Part shown: positions 1,076 through 8,169 of the stretch, piece by piece
Position numbering within the stretch: position 1 is the first letter of the stretch
Layout of the letters: each line of letters starts with the position of its first letter
From: Nitrospirota bacterium
GTDB taxonomy: Bacteria > Nitrospirota > Thermodesulfovibrionia > Thermodesulfovibrionales > JdFR-88
Direction of reading: 5' to 3'
Length of the DNA stretch: 21,752 bases
Assembly: GCA_021789735.1 (NCBI GenBank)
Contig: JAJYJB010000044.1
Coordinates: 1 to 21,752, forward strand
Notes under the pieces: generated by a model
The model's database searches: none
The model's input: the letters and a program-made list of their open reading frames with translations, nothing else
What the model was told of the DNA's origin: nothing
Made by a program: the position numbers and the translations under genes

Positions 1076-2311
1076 ATGGGTTATGTGAAGGCCCTCAGGT
1101 GCCGTGAGTGCTCGCGGGAATATCCCGTGGAGCCCATTTATGTATGTGAGTTCTGTTTCGGACCGCTCGAGGTGGTTTATGATTATAGCGGCATCAGCAA
1201 GGTGCTTGACAGAAAAACCATCGAGGGGCGGGACAAAAACCTGTGGCGTTACAGGGAACTGCTCCCAATAGACGGAGAGCCGAAGGTAGGACTGAGCTCC
1301 GGCTTCACACCGCTTTTAAAGGCGGACAACCTGGCCAAAGCGCTCGGCGTGAAAGAGCTCTTTATAAAGGACGATACGGTGATGCACCCCACGCTCTCCT
1401 TCAAGGACAGGGTGGTGTCGGTGGCGCTTACGAAGGCCATGGAGTTCGGGTTCGACACGGTGGCATGCGCTTCGACGGGCAACCTGGCACATTCGGTCTC
1501 CGCGCTCGGGGCTCGCTCCGGGCTCAACCGGTTCGTGTTCATACCGGCCACCCTTGAGCAAAGCAAGATAACCGCCTCCATCGTGTATTCTCCAAACCTT
1601 ATAGCGGTTGACGGCAACTACGATGACGTCAACCGGCTTTGCAGCGAGATAGCCAACAAGTACAAATGGGCGTTCGTGAACATCAACATAAGGCCATACT
1701 ATGCGGAGGGCTCCAAAACGCTGGGGTTCGAGGTGCTGGAACAGCTTGGCTGGGAGGCGCCGGACAATGTCGTCATCCCGTGCGCCAGCGGATCTCTGCT
1801 TACCAAGATATGGAAGAGCTTCAAGGAGGCAAAGATGATCGGTCTTCTGGACCGGCTGGAAACGAAGGTGTTTGCCGCGCAGGCCAGCGGGTGCTCGCCG
1901 ATAGTGACCGCCATAAAGCAGGGGGTTGAGGTAATACGGCCGGTGAAGCCGGACACGCTGGCAAAATCCCTTGCCATAGGCAACCCTGCTGACGGCTACT
2001 ACGCCGGGGCCGTAGTCAGGGAGACAGGTGGGGCTGGCGAGGATGTTTCCGACCTGGAGCTGATAGAGGCGATCAAACTCCTGGCCGCCACCGAGGGGGT
2101 GTTTGCCGAGACCGCAGGGGGCGTAACGCTTGCCGCGGCCAAAAAGCTCATAGCCTCCGGCAAGATAGACAGAGATTCGCGCACGGTTGTCTGCATTACC
2201 GGCAACGGCCTCAAGACACAGGAAGCGCTTGCCGGGCATACCGCCAGCGTGCATCGCATAAAACCCAATCTGGCATCCTTCGAGGATGTCCTTAACGCAA
2301 TAGGGAGGTGA
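1076..2311 (+). CDS. Threonine synthase paralog with N-terminal zinc ribbon, fold-type II PLP enzyme
   Basis: The 411-residue protein starts at an ATG preceded by a strong Shine-Dalgarno (AAGGAGGTG, 1062-1070). The N-terminus carries a zinc ribbon with Cys9, Cys12, Cys24 and Cys27. The PLP-binding Lys110 lies in HPTLSFKDRV and the phosphate/cofactor loop CASTGN is at 131-136. Overall length and order match zinc-ribbon threonine synthases, which convert O-phosphohomoserine to threonine. However, a canonical threonine synthase lies 690 bp downstream, and the Lys loop here is altered (HPTLSFKDRV versus [10 protein letters not shown]). The next two genes encode a CysO-like sulfur carrier and a NIL-domain protein. 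The stop overlaps the carrier's ribosome-binding site, so the genes are coupled. I therefore infer a sulfur-transfer role: O-phosphohomoserine to homocysteine, or O-phosphoserine to cysteine. Plain threonine synthase, or a cysteate-synthase-like activity, remain alternatives. Confidence 0.85.
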   Translation: MGYVKALRCRECSREYPVEPIYVCEFCFGPLEVVYDYSGISKVLDRKTIEGRDKNLWRYRELLPIDGEPKVGLSSGFTPLLKADNLAKALGVKELFIKDDTVMHPTLSFKDRVVSVALTKAMEFGFDTVACASTGNLAHSVSALGARSGLNRFVFIPATLEQSKITASIVYSPNLIAVDGNYDDVNRLCSEIANKYKWAFVNINIRPYYAEGSKTLGFEVLEQLGWEAPDNVVIPCASGSLLTKIWKSFKEAKMIGLLDRLETKVFAAQASGCSPIVTAIKQGVEVIRPVKPDTLAKSLAIGNPADGYYAGAVVRETGGAGEDVSDLELIEAIKLLAATEGVFAETAGGVTLAAAKKLIASGKIDRDSRTVVCITGNGLKTQEALAGHTASVHRIKPNLASFEDVLNAIGR

Positions 2312-2318
2312 TCGGGAC

Positions 2319-2597
2319 ATGTCAGTAAAAGTGAGGATACCTACTCCGCTTCAGCGGATTACCGGCGGGAAAGAGGAAGTGAGCACGGAGCCCGGCAAGG
2401 TCATAGACGTTGTCGCGGAGCTGGAGAGGCAGTTCCCAGGCATAGCCGAAAGGATCTCCGAGGGCGGCAAGATAAGAAGGTTCGTCAACGTTTACGTTAA
2501 CGAAGAGGACATCCGGTTCCTGCAGGGCGAAAACACGGTTGTGAAGGACGGTGACGAGGTGTCCATAGTGCCCGCCATAGCGGGCGGGAGGCTATAA
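2319..2597 (+). CDS. CysO/MoaD/ThiS-family sulfur carrier protein with GGRL tail
   Basis: This 92-residue beta-grasp protein is close to the CysO type. It has a TGGK loop near residue 17, the conserved segment RRFVNVYVNEEDIRF and the C-terminal run VPAIAGG. In this family the terminal Gly-Gly is adenylated by a ThiF/MoeB-like enzyme and converted to a thiocarboxylate, which donates sulfide to a PLP enzyme (CysM in Mycobacterium) or to homocysteine synthesis (HcyS in Wolinella). Here two residues, Arg-Leu, follow the Gly-Gly, so the precursor should need trimming. The Shine-Dalgarno GGGAGGTGA (2303-2311) includes the upstream stop codon. No activating enzyme or JAMM peptidase is in the window. 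Family call is firm; the pathway is inferred. Confidence 0.9.
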   Translation: MSVKVRIPTPLQRITGGKEEVSTEPGKVIDVVAELERQFPGIAERISEGGKIRRFVNVYVNEEDIRFLQGENTVVKDGDEVSIVPAIAGGRL

Positions 2598-2601
2598 GAA
2601 G

Positions 2602-2838
2602 ATGAAACAACGTGTAAAGCTTACGTTTCCGCAGCAGCTCATAAAAGAGCCTGTGATCTTCAGGATGGCCAAACAGTTCAGCGTCATGCCCAATATCAGG
2701 AGGGCCAGGGTGACCGAGACCATCGGCGAGATGGTCCTCGAGCTTGAGGGCGCACCAGAAGACCTCACGCGAGGCATAGAGTACCTGAAAAGCCAAGGCG
2801 TTGTGGTAGAGCTTGTCGAAGGTGACATAGTAGAATAA
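2602..2838 (+). CDS. Stand-alone NIL-domain protein
   Basis: The 78-residue protein begins 4 nt after the sulfur carrier stop. Its body matches the NIL fold: KLTFPQQLIKEPVIFRMA at residues 6-23, then NIRRARV and the ending GVVVELVEGD. NIL domains occur at the C-terminus of methionine ABC-transporter ATPases, where they bind methionine. Fused to ferredoxin they take part in the anaerobic route from aspartate semialdehyde to homocysteine. Here there is no ferredoxin or ATPase partner. Linkage to a sulfur carrier and a ThrC paralog suggests either methionine sensing or a direct role in sulfur transfer. It has no cysteines, which argues against carrying sulfur itself. Confidence 0.85.
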   Translation: MKQRVKLTFPQQLIKEPVIFRMAKQFSVMPNIRRARVTETIGEMVLELEGAPEDLTRGIEYLKSQGVVVELVEGDIVE

Positions 2839-2918: not shown

Positions 2919-3003
2919 GTCAGCGACCGGCTGGCAGTCAAAAAACTATGACAAATCAGAAAAAAGTCCTTACATCGGAGACCCAGGGAGTTTTTTAAAA
3001 ATG
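2916..3003 (+). repeat. Imperfect repeat unit C, ends at the thrC start codon
   Basis: The unit begins ATG-GTCAGCGACC, has an A-rich middle with AATCAGAAAA (compare AATCAGGAAAA in B), then ACATCGGAGACCC-AGGGAG and TTTAAAAATG, the last ATG being the start codon of thrC. At 88 nt it has the same length as unit A. Its AGGGAG (2985-2990) is the only Shine-Dalgarno candidate for thrC, with a long 10-nt gap. The unit may therefore serve as a leader or translation-initiation region. Confidence 0.5.
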
Positions 3004-4065
3004 GCCTGGAAAGGGATAGTTGACCAATACAGAGAATTTTTGCCCGTAACAGGCAGCACCCCTTCAGTGACCCTGCTTGAAGGCGGAACCCCGCTGGTCA
3101 GGGCCGTGAACCTTACCGCTACAAAGGTCCTTGACATAGAGCTTTATTTCAAATTCGAGGGCGCGAACCCCACCGGCTCTTTCAAGGACAGGGGGATGGC
3201 GATGGCGATCCCAAAGGCCCTTGAAGAGGGCGGCAGGGCGGTCATTTGCGCCTCCACTGGCAACACCTCTGCTTCCGCTGCCGCCTACGCCGCGCGCGCA
3301 GGGATGAAGGCCGTAGTGCTCATTCCGGAGGGTAAGATAGCCTTTGGCAAGCTGGCCCAGGCCATCATCCACGGGGCCTACGTCATCCAGATAAACGGTA
3401 ACTTTGACAGCGCCCTTGACCTTGTGAAGAGGATAGTCGGGGAGTACCCTATAAAGCTGGTCAATTCCATAAACCCCTTCAGGCTGGAAGGTCAGAAGAC
3501 GGCGGCCTTTGAGATAGTGGATGCCATGGGCGGCGCCCCCATGTTCCATGCGCTGCCTGTGGGCAATGCAGGCAATATCACCGCCTACTGGAAGGGATAC
3601 AAAGAGTACAGGCAGAGGGGCAAGGCCCGTTCCCTTCCGCGGATGCTTGGTTTTCAGGCGGCTGGCGCGGCCCCTATAGTGCTTGGCAATCCGGTCTCCC
3701 ATCCGGAAACGGTAGCCACCGCCATCCGTATCGGAAATCCTGCAAGCTGGGCCGGAGCGCTTAACGCAGTCAAAGAGTCAAATGGCAGGATTGAGGCTGT
3801 AACGGACGATGAGATACTGGACGCGTACCGCCTTGTTGCCGCCACCGAAGGGGTTTTCTGCGAGCCCGCAAGCGCGGCGTCCGTTGCGGGAGTGCTGAAG
3901 CTCGGAAAGGAAGGATTTTTCAGCTCCGGCGACCTGGTGGTCTGCACCCTTACCGGGCACGGACTTAAAGACCCGGATGCCGTCTTCAAGAGCATGCCCG
4001 CTTCCCCGCTTAAGGTGGAAAATGACTTTGCGGCCATAAAGGACGCAATAGAGAAGATACTTTGA
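3001..4065 (+). CDS. thrC: Threonine synthase (canonical)
   Basis: The 354-residue fold-type II PLP enzyme converts O-phosphohomoserine to threonine and phosphate, the last step of threonine synthesis, in the cytoplasm. The PLP lysine is Lys62 in the canonical [10 protein letters not shown] motif. The cofactor phosphate loop [14 protein letters not shown] follows at about residues 84-97, and the C-terminal half has the usual [15 protein letters not shown] segment. It lacks the N-terminal zinc ribbon of the upstream paralog. The frame is open upstream to 2845 but holds no ATG, GTG or TTG before 3001, so this start is chosen. It overlaps the next gene by 4 nt, consistent with a shared operon and substrate channel (kinase product feeds ThrC). 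Confidence 0.92.
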
Positions 4066-5291
4066 AATATATAATCCTGATAGGCGATGGTATGGCGGAC
4101 CGGCCTCTTGAACAGCTAGGGGGGAAAACGCCGCTCCAGGCGGCCTTCACCCCCAATATGGACAAGATGGCAAGGGAGGGCCTTGCAGGCGTTGCAAGGA
4201 CCCTGCCCGAAGGGCTGCCAAGCGGCTCCGACGTCGCCAACCTGAGCATACTGGGCTACGATCCTGAGAAATACTACACCGGCAGGGCCCCGCTGGAGGC
4301 TGCAAGCATGGGGATACCTCTTAAAAGAGGGGATGTGGCCTTCAGGTGCAATTTTGTGACCCTCAGGTATAACAGGGACAGGACAAAGATATATATGGAG
4401 GACCACAGCGCGGGGCAAATCAGCGCTGAAGAAGGACGCCTCCTCATAAAAGACTTAAACAGGGAGCTTGGCAGCGATGCCATCAGGTTCTACCCGGGCG
4501 TGAGCTACAGGAACCTGATGCTGTGGTCGGGAGGGGAAGCGGCTATTGACTGCACTCCTCCCCATGACATTTTGGGCAAGGAGATCGCCCATTATCTTCC
4601 ACAAGGCGCGAAGGAAGATTTTATAAGGCGGCTGATGCTGGCGTCGGTAGACATACTGGAACGCCACCCGGTGAACAAGAAGCGCGTCGCCGAAGGCAAA
4701 AGGCCCGCAAACAGCATCTGGCTCTGGGGCCAGGGCGGAAAGCCGGAGCTGCTCCCCTTCAGGCAGCTCTATGGTCTGAATGGCGCGATGGTCTCCGCAG
4801 TGGACCTGGCGAAAGGGCTTGCCATCTCGGCAGGCCTCAAGGTAATAGACGTCCCCGGAGCAACTGGCTGGCTGGATACGAACTATGCGGGCAAGGCGGA
4901 ATACGCGCTACGGGCGTTGGAAGAGTCCGACCTGGTTTACATCCATGTCGAGGCACCTGACGAGGCCAGCCACGAGGGCAATATCGAGCACAAGATAAAG
5001 GCCATTGAGGATTTTGACGCCCTGGTGGTCGGCACAGTCATGAGGGGTCTGCCCGAATGGGGAAGCTTCAGGGTGCTCCTGATGCCGGACCATGCCACGC
5101 CCATAGAGATAAGGACCCATGCCAAAGACCCTGTGCCTTTCGTGATCTATGACAGCGAGGGCAGTCATGGATGGGGAGAGCTTCCGGCAACTGCGGCCGG
5201 CTATGACGAGTCCATTACCAGATTGGAAGGGGCGATCAGGATAGACGCCCACAGGATAATGGGGCACTTTGTGGAAGGCAGGTTCGATTAG
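4062..5291 (+). CDS. apgM: ApgM-type alkaline-phosphatase-superfamily enzyme; likely homoserine kinase substitute
   Basis: The 409-residue protein begins with TTG at 4062, overlapping the thrC stop by 4 nt. It matches the archaeal-type cofactor-independent phosphoglycerate mutase family: metal-binding [10 protein letters not shown] at residues 6-15, the [22 protein letters not shown] region with a probable catalytic Ser56, [13 protein letters not shown], and the late metal-site motifs MPDHATP and THAKDPVPF. The family name implies interconversion of 2- and 3-phosphoglycerate. Members sandwiched between thrC and lysC have been proposed to phosphorylate homoserine instead. No GHMP-type homoserine kinase is in the window, so a homoserine kinase role fits well here. 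Family is firm, substrate is inferred from context. Confidence 0.9.
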
Positions 5292-5297
5292 ATAAAA

Positions 5298-6518
5298 ATG
5301 CTTATAGTCCAAAAATACGGGGGCACCTCCGTAGGCAGTTTGGAGCGCATCAAGGCAGTAGCCCGGAGGGTGGCCGAGTCCGTGAAGTCCGGTGCAAAGG
5401 TGGCCGTTGTAGTGTCCGCCATGTCAGGGGAGACGGACAGGCTGATAAGTATGGCGGGAAGCCTCTGCCAAAGGCCGGACGAGAGGGAGATGGACCTCCT
5501 TATGTCATCCGGGGAGAGGGTGAGCGCCGCGCTCACCGCGCTTGCCCTGCAGGAACTTGGCGTAAAGGCCATGTCCTTTACCGGCAGGCAGACCGGCATC
5601 ATGACCGACAAGGCCCACACGAGGGCCAAGATAGAAAAGATAACCGCCACGCGCGTGAGGAAGGCCCTCGACGGCGGCTCCGTTGCCGTCATAGCGGGAT
5701 TTCAGGGTGTCACGGAGGATGAGGACGTGACCACGCTTGGCAGGGGCGGGTCTGATCTGACTGCGGTCGCGCTGGCCGCGGCCCTTGAGGCGGACTTATG
5801 CGAGATATATACCGATGTGGAGGGCGTGTACACGACCGACCCCAATATAGTGCCCGAAGCCAGAAAGATGGAAAAGATATCCTATGACGAGATGCTGGAG
5901 CTTGCCAGCCTCGGGGCCAAGGTGCTCCAGACGCGTTCAGTGGAGTTTGCAAAAAAATACAGCGTGCCCCTCGTTGTGAAGTCCAGCTTCAATAATGCTC
6001 CGGGGACTTACATTGTCAAGGAGGACAAGGACATGGAAAAGGTGGTGGTCTCTGGCGTTACTTACGATAAAAATCAGTCAAAGCTCACGATCCTGGGCGT
6101 GCCGGACAAACCAGGCATCGCCGGCAGGCTCTTTTCGGAGATAGCCGGCGCGGGACTGGTCGTGGACATGATAGTGCAGAACATTTCCCCGGATGGCAGG
6201 TCTACAGACATCTCCTTCACCACCCCCAGGACCGACAGCCCGAAGGGGCTGGATATAACAAAAAAATTCGCTTCGGAGCATGGCGCCCGGGGTGTGGACC
6301 TGAAGGACGACATATCGAAGGTGTCCATCGTGGGGGTTGGCATGAGGACCCATTCAGGCGTGGCCTCCAAGATGTTCGAAACCCTGGCGGCCCATAATAT
6401 AAACATAATGATGATTAGCACCTCTGAGATAAAGGTCTCCTGCGTCATAGATTCCAAGTACACGGAGCTTGCCGTCAGGGTTCTACACGAGGCCTTCGGC
6501 CTGGAGAAGGCCGCCTGA
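5298..6518 (+). CDS. lysC: Aspartokinase
   Basis: The 406-residue enzyme phosphorylates aspartate, committing it to lysine, threonine and methionine synthesis. The N-terminal nucleotide-binding motif KYGGTSVGS is at residues 6-14. [15 protein letters not shown] and the segment [19 protein letters not shown] complete the kinase domain (to about 250). Two ACT domains at roughly 262-406 ([14 protein letters not shown] and later [19 protein letters not shown]) indicate allosteric feedback by lysine and/or threonine. Length is typical for a monofunctional aspartokinase. It lies 6 nt after apgM in the same operon. The start is preceded by an A-rich stretch without a clear Shine-Dalgarno. Confidence 0.95.
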
Positions 6519-6530
6519 AAAGGCGCTTTT
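6512..6530 (+). terminator. Possible intrinsic terminator overlapping the lysC stop
   Basis: CGCCT-GAAA-AGGCG forms a five-base-pair stem with a GAAA tetraloop, followed by CTTTT. The lysC stop TGA (6516-6518) lies in the stem-loop. The stem is short and the T tract is only four, so partial termination at most; yfcE starts 38 nt further on. Confidence 0.4.
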
Positions 6531-6567
6531 AAAACAAAGTCAAAAAAACCGGACTGATAAAAAAAAT

Positions 6568-7047
6568 ATGCTGATAGGCATAATGTCGGATACCCATGAC
6601 GATATGGAGTCCATAAACAGGGCCGTAGCCTTTTTTAACTCCAGAAAAGTGGATATGGTGCTCCATGCGGGCGACCTCGTGTCTCCGTTTACGTTTGAGG
6701 CGCTTGGGAAACTGGAGGCGGCCTTCACAGGCGTTTTTGGCAACAACGACGGAGACAGACTCATGCTGGCAAGGAAGTCGGGTGACAGGCTCTTCGATGC
6801 TCCATACATAATTGAGGCCGGAGGCAAGAGGTTCGTCCTGATGCACGAGCCAAAGGTGGTGGAAGAGCTTGCCGAAAGCAGGAAGTTCGACGCCGTCATA
6901 TACGGGCACCTCCATAAGCCGGATATAAGGAAAAAAGACGGCATCCTGATCGTTAGCCCGGGCAAAGTGGCAAAGCTCCACAAAGGGGAATCCACGGTTG
7001 CCATCATGGACACGGAAAACATGGAGGCCTCGATCATCAGGCTTTAA
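6568..7047 (+). CDS. YfcE/MJ0936-type metallophosphoesterase
   Basis: I place the start at the ATG at 6568 because the family begins LIGIMSDTHDD. An in-frame ATG at 6469 lies inside lysC and would add 33 non-conserved residues. The 159-residue protein has the calcineurin-like metal motifs in order: SDTHD (7-11), HAGDLVSP, GNND, LMHEP and YGHLHKP. Members hydrolyse phosphodiesters such as bis-p-nitrophenyl phosphate in vitro, with manganese or nickel; the physiological substrate is uncertain. The final GKVAKL segment is also typical. It follows lysC in the same direction but has no evident link to amino acid synthesis. Confidence 0.88.
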   Translation: MLIGIMSDTHDDMESINRAVAFFNSRKVDMVLHAGDLVSPFTFEALGKLEAAFTGVFGNNDGDRLMLARKSGDRLFDAPYIIEAGGKRFVLMHEPKVVEELAESRKFDAVIYGHLHKPDIRKKDGILIVSPGKVAKLHKGESTVAIMDTENMEASIIRL

Positions 7048-7083: not shown

Positions 7084-8169
7084 TTACTTATTTTCTTTCT
7101 TTTTCTTTTCCGGCTTTTGCACCCTGTGCTCCTCAAGAAACGAGGAGCTTGCAGGCACTGCGAGGACTGTTTTTGTGCGGATGCCGGCCTTCGCTGTTAC
7201 GGGCACCCTTGGCAGGTGCCTGTTATCCGAATACCTGGCGCATATCGAGGCCGCAGCCATCGCTTCTTCCGTATCAGCGGGGTCAATATCCAGTTCTTTT
7301 TTATCACCCGCCGTGGAGAGCGGGCCGCCATGCCCGTCAAATAACGCAAGCACTACGGGGCTGCCGCACCCCTCAGCCTTTAAAAGCAGGTCTTCCTGCC
7401 CGGCTAGCGCCTCTATGCGGTTGTTGTCGGCCTCGTTCCTGCCCGCGATTATCTTGGTCCGGCCTACCCTGAAGTGCCTGCCAACCCTGAGAAGGTTCAG
7501 GTCCCTGATGGATGGGTCGGGGTCTGACCTCAGGAGTTCCCTGAGCCTCCAGGCATAATTAGGCTCCGTGAGCAGGCATCCGCCAGCCGGGTTCGGATAC
7601 TCCGTGAGGCCGAGCTCTTCAGCAAGCTTCATCTGGGGTTTTCTGCTTCTGCCGTAAAAATCAAAAAGTTTGTCCCTGTCTATCAGACCGTTTTTTTGTG
7701 CATCGGTCTCCGGCAGGACCTTTGCGGAAAGCGGCCTTAAGACCTTCCCCACAAGGCCGGCCTCCCTGTCTATAAGCGGGAAGGTCTCGCGCCTCTGGCT
7801 CATGGGCCGCTGTCCAAGCACCTCGCCCGTGACCACGAAATCCGCCCCGGTAAGGCGCATCAGCTCTCCGGCCTCCCGCAGCATGAGTATCCGGCAGTCT
7901 ATGCAGGGGTTCATGTTCTTGCCATGGCCGAACTTCGGGTTTTTGACTATTTCTATGAACCTGTCCGCCAGGTGGCAGAGTTTAACCTTGAAGCCGAATT
8001 TTTCGGCTGCCGGGAACGGGTTTTTGGAGCAGGACGACGTGTCGGAGATGTCGCATCCGAAATGGGTGAGAAAGGTGACCGCGGTGACGTCTACCCCAAG
8101 GTTCTTAACAACCAGCACCGCCAGGGTGCTGTCCAGTCCTCCGGACAAAAGTGCTATGGCTTTAGGCAT
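7084..8169 (-). CDS. PP-loop ATPase related to tRNA 2-thiouridylase, with C-terminal extension
   Basis: The 361-residue protein has an N-terminal PP-loop (SGGLDSTLAV, residues 9-18) that adenylates a substrate, as in MnmA, ThiI and related tRNA-thiolating enzymes. Conserved-looking cysteines follow: FGCDIS and SSCSK near 39-47, NPCIDC near 86-91 and PAGGCLL near 198. GEVLGQRPMSQR is typical of this branch. A C-terminal region starts near residue 220 (LLRVGRHFRVGRTKII, GRNEADN). The tail is lysine-rich (KPEKKKKENK). I infer a tRNA sulfur-modification role, with the CxxC pair possibly binding a metal or iron-sulfur cluster. It is not a standard MnmA. The gene lies 24 nt downstream of rfaE1 and is convergent with yfcE. 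Confidence 0.8.
   Translation of the reverse strand: MPKAIALLSGGLDSTLAVLVVKNLGVDVTAVTFLTHFGCDISDTSSCSKNPFPAAEKFGFKVKLCHLADRFIEIVKNPKFGHGKNMNPCIDCRILMLREAGELMRLTGADFVVTGEVLGQRPMSQRRETFPLIDREAGLVGKVLRPLSAKVLPETDAQKNGLIDRDKLFDFYGRSRKPQMKLAEELGLTEYPNPAGGCLLTEPNYAWRLRELLRSDPDPSIRDLNLLRVGRHFRVGRTKIIAGRNEADNNRIEALAGQEDLLLKAEGCGSPVVLALFDGHGGPLSTAGDKKELDIDPADTEEAMAAASICARYSDNRHLPRVPVTAKAGIRTKTVLAVPASSSFLEEHRVQKPEKKKKENK

Follow-up and report, generated by a model that had tools for sequence, protein, structure and literature searches.

A threonine synthase paralog encoded with a sulfur carrier and a NIL protein is a candidate homocysteine synthase of Nitrospirota

Introduction

What does a second threonine synthase-like enzyme do when it is encoded directly beside a sulfur carrier? 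This question is raised by a 21,752-nt stretch of Nitrospirota DNA (JAJYJB010000044.1), analysed here as a whole and called the window, in which three genes (1076-2838, + strand) encode a zinc-ribbon, ThrC-fold pyridoxal phosphate (PLP) enzyme that we call ThrC2, a CysO/ThiS-like sulfur carrier and a stand-alone NIL protein. An earlier note on this DNA had proposed that the trio is a carrier-dependent homocysteine (or cysteine) synthase supplied with O-phosphohomoserine through neighbouring genes, an overall interpretation that our results support. We think it likely that ThrC2 and the carrier form a homocysteine synthase, which would convert O-phosphohomoserine and the carrier thiocarboxylate to homocysteine, with the substrate, the donor and the order of the steps as we infer them. 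With less assurance, though still on balance, we regard ThrC2 as the first fold-type-II PLP enzyme to make homocysteine by gamma-replacement on O-phosphohomoserine with a carrier thiocarboxylate, the NIL protein acting as sensor, in a system found in most Nitrospirota and partly (enzyme and carrier) in at least one actinomycete. We found no description of a ThrC-carrier-NIL homocysteine route in the open-licence literature, and nothing on it in the accessible parts of PMC9012536, PMC5812927 and PMC13257386.

Results and discussion

The trio is conserved across Nitrospirota

The three open reading frames (ORFs) lie on one strand with intergenic gaps of 7 nt (thrC2/carrier) and 4 nt (carrier/NIL), so that the tight coupling read earlier from the sequence holds, as do the assigned identities. 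ThrC2 (1076-2311, 411 aa), behind what reads as a Shine-Dalgarno-like aaggaggtg (1062-1070, +), matches PALP (7.6e-66) and the TIGR00260 thrC model (294.7 bits vs a cut-off of 167.1); the 92-residue carrier (2319-2597) matches ThiS (Pfam, 2.7e-18) and the 78-residue third protein (2602-2838) matches NIL (Pfam, 4.8e-19) as its sole domain, with no ferredoxin domain.

Among the best 80 loci, drawn from 573 confirmed relatives in genome contigs, thrC2-thiS-NIL is kept in 77 (with thiS and NIL as a single ORF in four of these), and in the remaining three the contig stops 101-317 bases past thrC2. The linkage of the trio is beyond chance. The best matches place the window in Nitrospirota; one of them, a metagenome-assembled genome named Nitrospirae (L001), encodes a ThrC2 96% identical to that of the window. 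A ThrC1-type (canonical threonine synthase) gene lies within the locus in 65 of the 80, together with homoserine dehydrogenase in at least 27, a MoeB/ThiF-type E1 in at least 27, TusA in at least 21 and a JAMM peptidase in at least 21; neighbour counts are lower bounds since many loci end before such genes could appear, and the last four identities were each borne out by Pfam in a single member. Where complete, the locus typically reads hom-tusA-E1-JAMM-thrC2-thiS-NIL-thrC1-apgM-lysC-cimA. In a second group (L081-L088), E1, thrC2, thiS, NIL, E1 and JAMM are present in 8/8 loci, the L084 carrier, missed by the ORF step, having been positioned by a separate carrier search. There, ThrC2 of L081 is 87-98% identical to 120 listed relatives, whose informative names are mostly Nitrospira, Nitrospiraceae or Nitrospirota, and cysK precedes the E1-thrC2-thiS-NIL-E1-JAMM run. 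This cysK showed up as a weak ThrC1 match in L081, L083, L084, L087 and L088 and was unlabelled in L082, L085 and L086; it was named by NCBIfam in L081, and CysK/M matches fall at that position in the genomes checked (G123, G153, G086 and G132). Beside the operon of L085, a PALP enzyme of the CysK type bears a ThiS domain at its N-terminus (L085:6568-7725).

The phylum was covered by an evenly drawn sample of 158 Nitrospirota genomes, outside which lie the window's own assembly and G001, the genome of L001, in which the search covered ThrC2; a completeness of 88 was requested for this sample and no completeness values were given, which bears on every absence count below. ThrC2 is present in 134/158 genomes at 538 bits or more, the next matches reaching at most 239 bits. 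The carrier occurs in every one of the 134, no more than 2 kb from thrC2 in 132 and on a different contig in the other two, and 128 have the NIL gene within 2.5 kb. The six NIL exceptions are two genes on another contig, two at 2.8-3.0 kb, one outside the matches listed (G144) and one genome (G147) with a divergent NIL-sized gene at the NIL position that has no Pfam match. Co-occurrence in other genomes, which the earlier note had named as a check on its proposal, is thereby borne out. JAMM is found in 132/134 genomes with ThrC2 vs 15/24 without. Counted among the latter is G016, in which the thrC2 that stands between E1 and thiS is cut to 213 codons (L124:6088-6729), through an assembly fault or decay.

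Strong PF01053 and HcyA matches are missing from most ThrC2 genomes

PF01053, which covers MetB, MetC, MetY and MetZ, gives strong matches (E 1e-47 or better) in 47/158 genomes (as pieces in G036 and G060) and weak ones (~1e-11 to 1e-13) in 10 more, and HcyA (PF01837) is present in 4/158, that is 0/134 with ThrC2 and 4/24 without. Strong PF01053 occurs in 31/134 ThrC2 genomes, and the search for PF01053 and HcyA found no known homocysteine synthase in the other 103. Strong PF01053 or HcyA is thus present in 31/134 genomes with ThrC2 vs 20/24 without (Fisher p 2.8e-8, kinship ignored), or 40/134 vs 21/24 when weak PF01053 is counted too. MetX-like proteins were found in 5/158 genomes (1/134 among those with ThrC2), none above the curated cut-off; for homoserine activation this count stands alone, as no search was made for MetA or for further enzymes that activate homoserine or form methionine. 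CysK/M was found in 157/158 genomes, 156 above the curated cut-off, often within the thrC2 operon. Neither result that the earlier note had set against its proposal, a complete standard MetX/MetY and CysK set together with plain threonine synthase activity of the paralog or a lack of co-occurrence of the three genes, was seen: among these 158 relatives the MetX/MetY-type part of the set is mostly missing, as is HcyA from all ThrC2 genomes; the CysK part is nearly universal.

ThrC2, carrier and JAMM are all missing from the four genomes with HcyA, where a NIL gene adjoins HcyA; the one in L099 encodes NIL plus Fer4 (Pfam). Thermodesulfovibrio sp. N1 (L063 = G002) has ThrC2, carrier, NIL, JAMM, CysK/M and MetE, and its genome gave no PF01053, HcyA or MetX match.

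ThrC2 is a distinct clade with an altered active site

In the tree, 18 ThrC2 sequences, including one from Nonomuraea, form a single clade (100/100 support, long branches) apart from ThrC1 and from a third type, ThrC3. When 88 ThrC2 and 66 ThrC1 sequences are aligned, 54 columns are conserved at 0.9 or more within each group yet differ between the groups. The replacements in ThrC2 (numbering of Thermus thermophilus ThrC) include G58 to Leu, T88 to Leu, S155 to Asn, N157 to Arg, R160 to Tyr, Q164 to Ser, G187-N191 to ASGSL and R242 to Ala. Accordingly, the N157-P-x-R160 motif of ThrC has as its counterpart R206-P-Y-Y209 in the window protein (1691-1702, +), and the GNAGN loop has A237-S-G-S-L241 (1784-1798, +). 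R206 and Y209 stand at 1.00 in the 88 ThrC2 sequences, as do the counterparts N157 and R160 in the 66 ThrC1 sequences; T88, S155, N157, R160, GNAGN and R242 are replaced in every ThrC2 examined, including the 18 rows of a second alignment, in which the Nonomuraea protein has His at position 58 and Gln at position 191. We take T88, S155, N157, R160 and G187-N191 to be defining residues of threonine synthases, and the ThrC1 of the window retains R160, S155 and GNAGN. K110 (codon 1403-1405, +; SFKDR) aligns with K61 of T. thermophilus ThrC, is Lys in all rows of the second alignment and is presumably the PLP lysine of the family.

ThrC2 thus shares with TIGR00260 threonine synthases the fold, the PLP lysine and a score above the model cut-off, and differs from them by its active-site signature and its carrier partner. 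Its best NCBIfam matches are ThrC models, cysM not being among the best 25 of 36 matches. The AlphaFold2 (AF2) model (pLDDT 83.9, pTM 0.85) has the threonine synthases 2zsj and 6cgq as nearest folds; AF2 models inform here on folds only.

The carrier looks like a trimmed precursor and the NIL protein like a methionine-binding domain

Among solved structures, the best relatives of the carrier are 3dwg ('9.5 kDa culture filtrate antigen', 3.4e-21), which we take for CysO, and 4n6e, titled 'ThiS/MoaD family protein'; the alignments extend to the terminal Gly-Gly of each. A PAIAGG-type motif is present in 116/116 carrier ORFs of the locus tables, a count that takes in five loci lacking ThrC2. Five of the 116 carriers continue into NIL behind Gly-Gly; among the 111 unfused ones, 14 end at Gly-Gly and 97 bear 1-18 extra residues, with 73 distinct tails. 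A fixed Gly-Gly followed by a hypervariable tail is as expected of a peptidase-trimmed precursor. In the window, G89-G90 (codons 2583-2588, +) would be the thiocarboxylate end, and an Arg-Leu tail follows (2589-2594, +). ThiS-NIL fusions are common elsewhere: with a fusion as query, 7,825/7,997 scored candidates match at E 1e-8; among the 120 matches listed, nearly all bear both the ThiS and the NIL Pfam domain.

The AF2 model of the NIL protein (pLDDT 90.2) has as its 11 best PDB matches the NIL domains of MetN or MetN-like ABC transporters, with a template-modelling score (to query) of 0.77-0.87 against those of MetNI, the methionine importer, and related transporters. It is probably a methionine-binding and methionine-sensing subunit for feedback, a role that we infer. 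The NIL gene adjoins a gene matching TIGR02535 ('proposed homoserine kinase') even without thrC2, or without both thrC2 and the carrier (L089-L093, L097:6481-7935, L105-L111), so it may act also on the TIGR02535 step.

SAM riboswitches precede thrC2 operons or metK in two clades

Rfam at the gathering threshold was applied to 38 sources (~562 kb), all of them thrC2 neighbourhoods and hence without a control for absence elsewhere; it found eight S-adenosylmethionine (SAM) riboswitches, three SAM_alpha and five SAM-II. The SAM_alpha elements lie 35, 68 and 68 nt 5' of JAMM in JAMM-cysK-thrC2-tusA operons (L125, L126 and L238; 3/3 of the clade), and in this clade the switch heads the thrC2 operon itself. 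The SAM-II elements lie 28-76 nt 5' of metK in 5/8 genomes of a clade (L084, L239, L240, L242 and L243) with the gene run metK-ahcY-cysK-E1-thrC2-thiS-NIL-E1-JAMM, metK and ahcY being confirmed by NCBIfam in L084, and may serve metK alone. SAM-II falls just below threshold at the same position in L241 and L244 (41.7 and 43.2 bits vs 44); the eighth metK-ahcY genome, L245, was not retested below the Rfam threshold. In L240, a HEARO RNA (6415-6661, +; 90.8 bits) sits just past cysK and overlaps the start of an unusually long E1-matching ORF, likely an insertion in the operon.

The SAM riboswitches of these two clades and the metK-ahcY genes of one, which link the operon to methionine, together with a CysK/M in 157/158 genomes that often shares the operon, favour homocysteine over cysteine, the other product that the earlier note had allowed.

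ThrC2 appears to have been lost several times, often where another enzyme is present

Nine genomes lacking ThrC2 (L089-L092, L105-L109) keep the operon (E1, JAMM, thiS, NIL, apgM) intact save for thrC2, with a separate hom or TusA label absent in some. The PF01053 regions were inspected in six of the nine. PF01053 stands beside ThrC3 in G044, G052, G013 and G056 (L114, L115, L121 and L122), does not do so in G048 (L117) and is found with MetX and CysK in G062 (L096); a further PF01053 gene, lacking a ThrC neighbour, is present in G052 and G056 (L116 and L123). ThrC3, which matches the T. thermophilus residue at 14/17 positions compared, and PF01053 are neighbours in L120 and L128 as well. Elsewhere the two are fused into one protein of 848-856 aa (L118:5140-7710, L119:4187-6733 and L127:4593-7139; confirmed by Pfam for L118), which perhaps unites the two pathways that branch at O-phosphohomoserine. 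Two genomes look like intermediates in replacement: besides ThrC2, G102 carries a ThrC3-PF01053 fusion and G145 a MetY-MetX-MetW-CysK cluster.

An rpoB tree was built from 100 of the 152 rpoB-bearing genomes, with PF01053-bearing ones over-represented (23/24 without ThrC2, 27/31 with ThrC2 and PF01053, 50/103 others). ThrC2 changes eight times on it. Five loss groups have an alternative, namely HcyA in one, PF01053 with ThrC3 in two and MetX-MetY in two, and the losses without one are three single genomes (G016, G026 and G160), to which G139 adds a case inside one group. Five of eight losses with an alternative, at a base rate of 31/134, give a binomial value of 0.02, but the formal test by independent pairs on this tree, detailed below, was not significant.

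ThrC2 and a carrier are also paired in Nonomuraea

In the plasmid collection, 84 records match ThrC2 and four, among the 25 listed, were examined. In Nonomuraea gerenzanensis (L101:6833-8524), a ThrC2 relative (54%) is followed by a carrier that ends exactly in AVAGG, and no NIL match was found at this locus; a groEL-like ORF lies downstream. The haloarchaeal, Chlorohelix and one Azospirillum gene (33-40%) have no ThiS or NIL match within 4 kb flanks. The haloarchaeal plasmid 'thrC' (L102:3995-5254) has Gln at the position of T. thermophilus ThrC Arg160.

A proposed pathway and its alternatives

In the pathway that we propose, O-phosphohomoserine would be provided by LysC, a presumed Asd and homoserine dehydrogenase, with the TIGR02535 protein as the probable kinase, and ThrC1 would convert it to threonine. 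ThrC2 would bind the same compound on PLP, expel phosphate and form a beta,gamma-unsaturated ketimine as in threonine synthases, and sulfur rather than water would then be added, at C-gamma rather than C-beta. The donor would be the C-terminal thiocarboxylate of the carrier: JAMM would trim the variable tail and expose Gly-Gly, E1 would adenylate the carrier, and TusA or another relay would provide the sulfur. The carrier-homocysteine adduct would be released through hydrolysis, a step that may fall to the same JAMM (cf. Mec+ on CysO-cysteine), and the NIL protein would probably sense methionine as the feedback subunit.

Could ThrC2 instead be a CysM-like cysteine synthase, joining O-phosphoserine and the carrier thiocarboxylate by beta-replacement? 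The CysO-type relatives of the carrier and the cysK genes that often share its operon would suit this, fold type II PLP enzymes usually perform beta-replacement, and cysteate synthase, which is ThrC-like, uses O-phosphoserine. We nevertheless consider it improbable, given the near-universal CysK/M, the homoserine/aspartate-pathway neighbours, the distribution complementary to that of homocysteine synthases and the SAM riboswitch and metK-ahcY context. We also give little credence to a ThrC2 that makes homocysteine (or cystathionine) from free sulfide or cysteine, with a carrier that serves CysK only or is a ubiquitin-like regulator. It would fit the shared operons of cysK and carrier, the second ThiS domain that L085 has on its CysK-type enzyme and the phosphohomoserine sulfhydrylase activity of plants reported in PMC5120207; against it stand the closeness of carrier and thrC2 (2 kb or less in 132/134 genomes) and the thrC2-carrier pair of Nonomuraea (where cysK was not looked for), and the cystathionine variant requires a PF01053 lyase, not found in 103/134 ThrC2 genomes.

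A role of ThrC2 as an additional threonine synthase or as a dehydratase-like enzyme, its linkage reflecting shared regulation only, is very improbable. ThrC2 does pass the TIGR00260 curated cut-off, and the informative names among the 120 best matches listed say threonine synthase, but a ThrC1-type gene is already present in 65/80 loci, the 54 differing columns include S155, N157, R160 and the GNAGN loop, and the linkage to carrier, JAMM and E1 would be left unexplained.

Several observations weigh against a carrier-dependent homocysteine synthase. Strong PF01053 coexists with ThrC2 in the 31 genomes mentioned, including all eight of the metK-ahcY clade, and of the 103 ThrC2 genomes without a known homocysteine synthase, 62 have MetH or MetE and 41 lack both MetH (PF02574) and full MetE (PF01717). 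The Fisher test of complementarity ignores kinship, and the independent-pairs test on the rpoB tree was not significant (averages over six independent pairs on starred branches: 2.2 the same way, 1.4 opposite and 2.4 without difference). The counterpart of Arg160, which with its neighbours holds the substrate phosphate in T. thermophilus ThrC, is Tyr in ThrC2, so that a different anchor, R206 perhaps, would be required for O-phosphohomoserine. Rfam found no SAM riboswitch in the window and in seven loci of its own group, and E1, JAMM and TusA are absent from the annotated window ORFs. Finally, BT2402, a TIGR02535 member, failed to rescue growth of an E. coli thrB mutant, according to PMC7311316.

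Relation to known systems

The nearest precedent is the carrier-based homocysteine route of Wolinella succinogenes, for which Krishnamoorthy and Begley reportedly described HcyS/HcyD/HcyF with MetY in 2011. It is cited as a known pathway in PMC5764234. The reported set and the one here share a CysO/ThiS-like carrier, a JAMM peptidase, an E1 and the homocysteine product (proposed here), and the Gly-Gly carrier with a C-terminal extension plus JAMM is indeed found in the relatives (97/111 tailed, JAMM in 132/134); they differ in the PLP enzyme, a PF01053 O-acetylhomoserine sulfhydrylase there and a ThrC-fold enzyme here, PF01053 and homoserine acetyltransferase being mostly missing (31/134 and, MetX-like, 1/134). 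The simplest account is a thiocarboxylate-fed homocysteine synthase with a threonine synthase fold and O-phosphohomoserine as the presumed feed, a set that would work like HcyS-MetY. CysO-CysM-Mec+-MoeZ of Mycobacterium (PMC3227635) is alike in carrier family (3dwg, above), E1, release by a protease and a fold type II PLP enzyme; there CysM makes cysteine from O-phosphoserine, whereas the enzyme here belongs to the ThrC rather than the CysM family, a separate cysteine synthase exists and the context is homoserine and SAM. HcyA (DUF39) with its NIL/ferredoxin partner (PMC5764234) likewise sets a NIL protein beside a sulfur-inserting homocysteine enzyme, but HcyA is in 0/134 ThrC2 genomes and the NIL protein of the window has no ferredoxin domain. 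The ThrC2 set therefore lies outside HcyS-MetY, CysO-CysM and HcyA/HcyB, because a defining enzyme of each was looked for and was missing. The ThiS/MoaD-JAB-E1 neighbourhoods 4c and 4e of PMC1779556 combine carrier, E1, JAB and SirA with cysteine synthase or O-acetylhomoserine sulfhydrylase, and a word-start search of the accessible text of that paper gave no mention of threonine synthase, NIL or methionine.

If the proposal is true, it adds a homocysteine pathway beside those of PF01053 and HcyA and a new reaction to the ThrC fold, corrects a family now named threonine synthase and explains methionine synthesis in many Nitrospirota, including relatives of nitrite oxidizers and sulfate reducers. 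The set is a clonable candidate of few genes, for example in Thermodesulfovibrio sp. N1.

Neighbouring genes in the window

The aspartate kinase and putative homoserine kinase genes that the earlier note had placed beside the trio are both present on the + strand: lysC at 5298-6518 (NF005155, 615.9 bits) and the TIGR02535 gene, with a TTG start, at 4062-5291 (547.8 bits, cut-off 446.3). The product of the latter, which also matches the phosphoglycerate mutase model NF003242 slightly better (563.1 bits, cut-off 426), is probably the homoserine kinase, a candidate judged by its sequence. Adjoining the trio is a further gene, absent from the earlier list of neighbours, for the canonical, ribbon-less threonine synthase ThrC1 (3001-4065, +; TIGR00260, 322.1 bits). 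Farther along, on the opposite strand (7084-8169, -), an ORF combines a ThiI/HUP-type domain with an NFACT-R_2 domain and resembles a tRNA thiolation protein.

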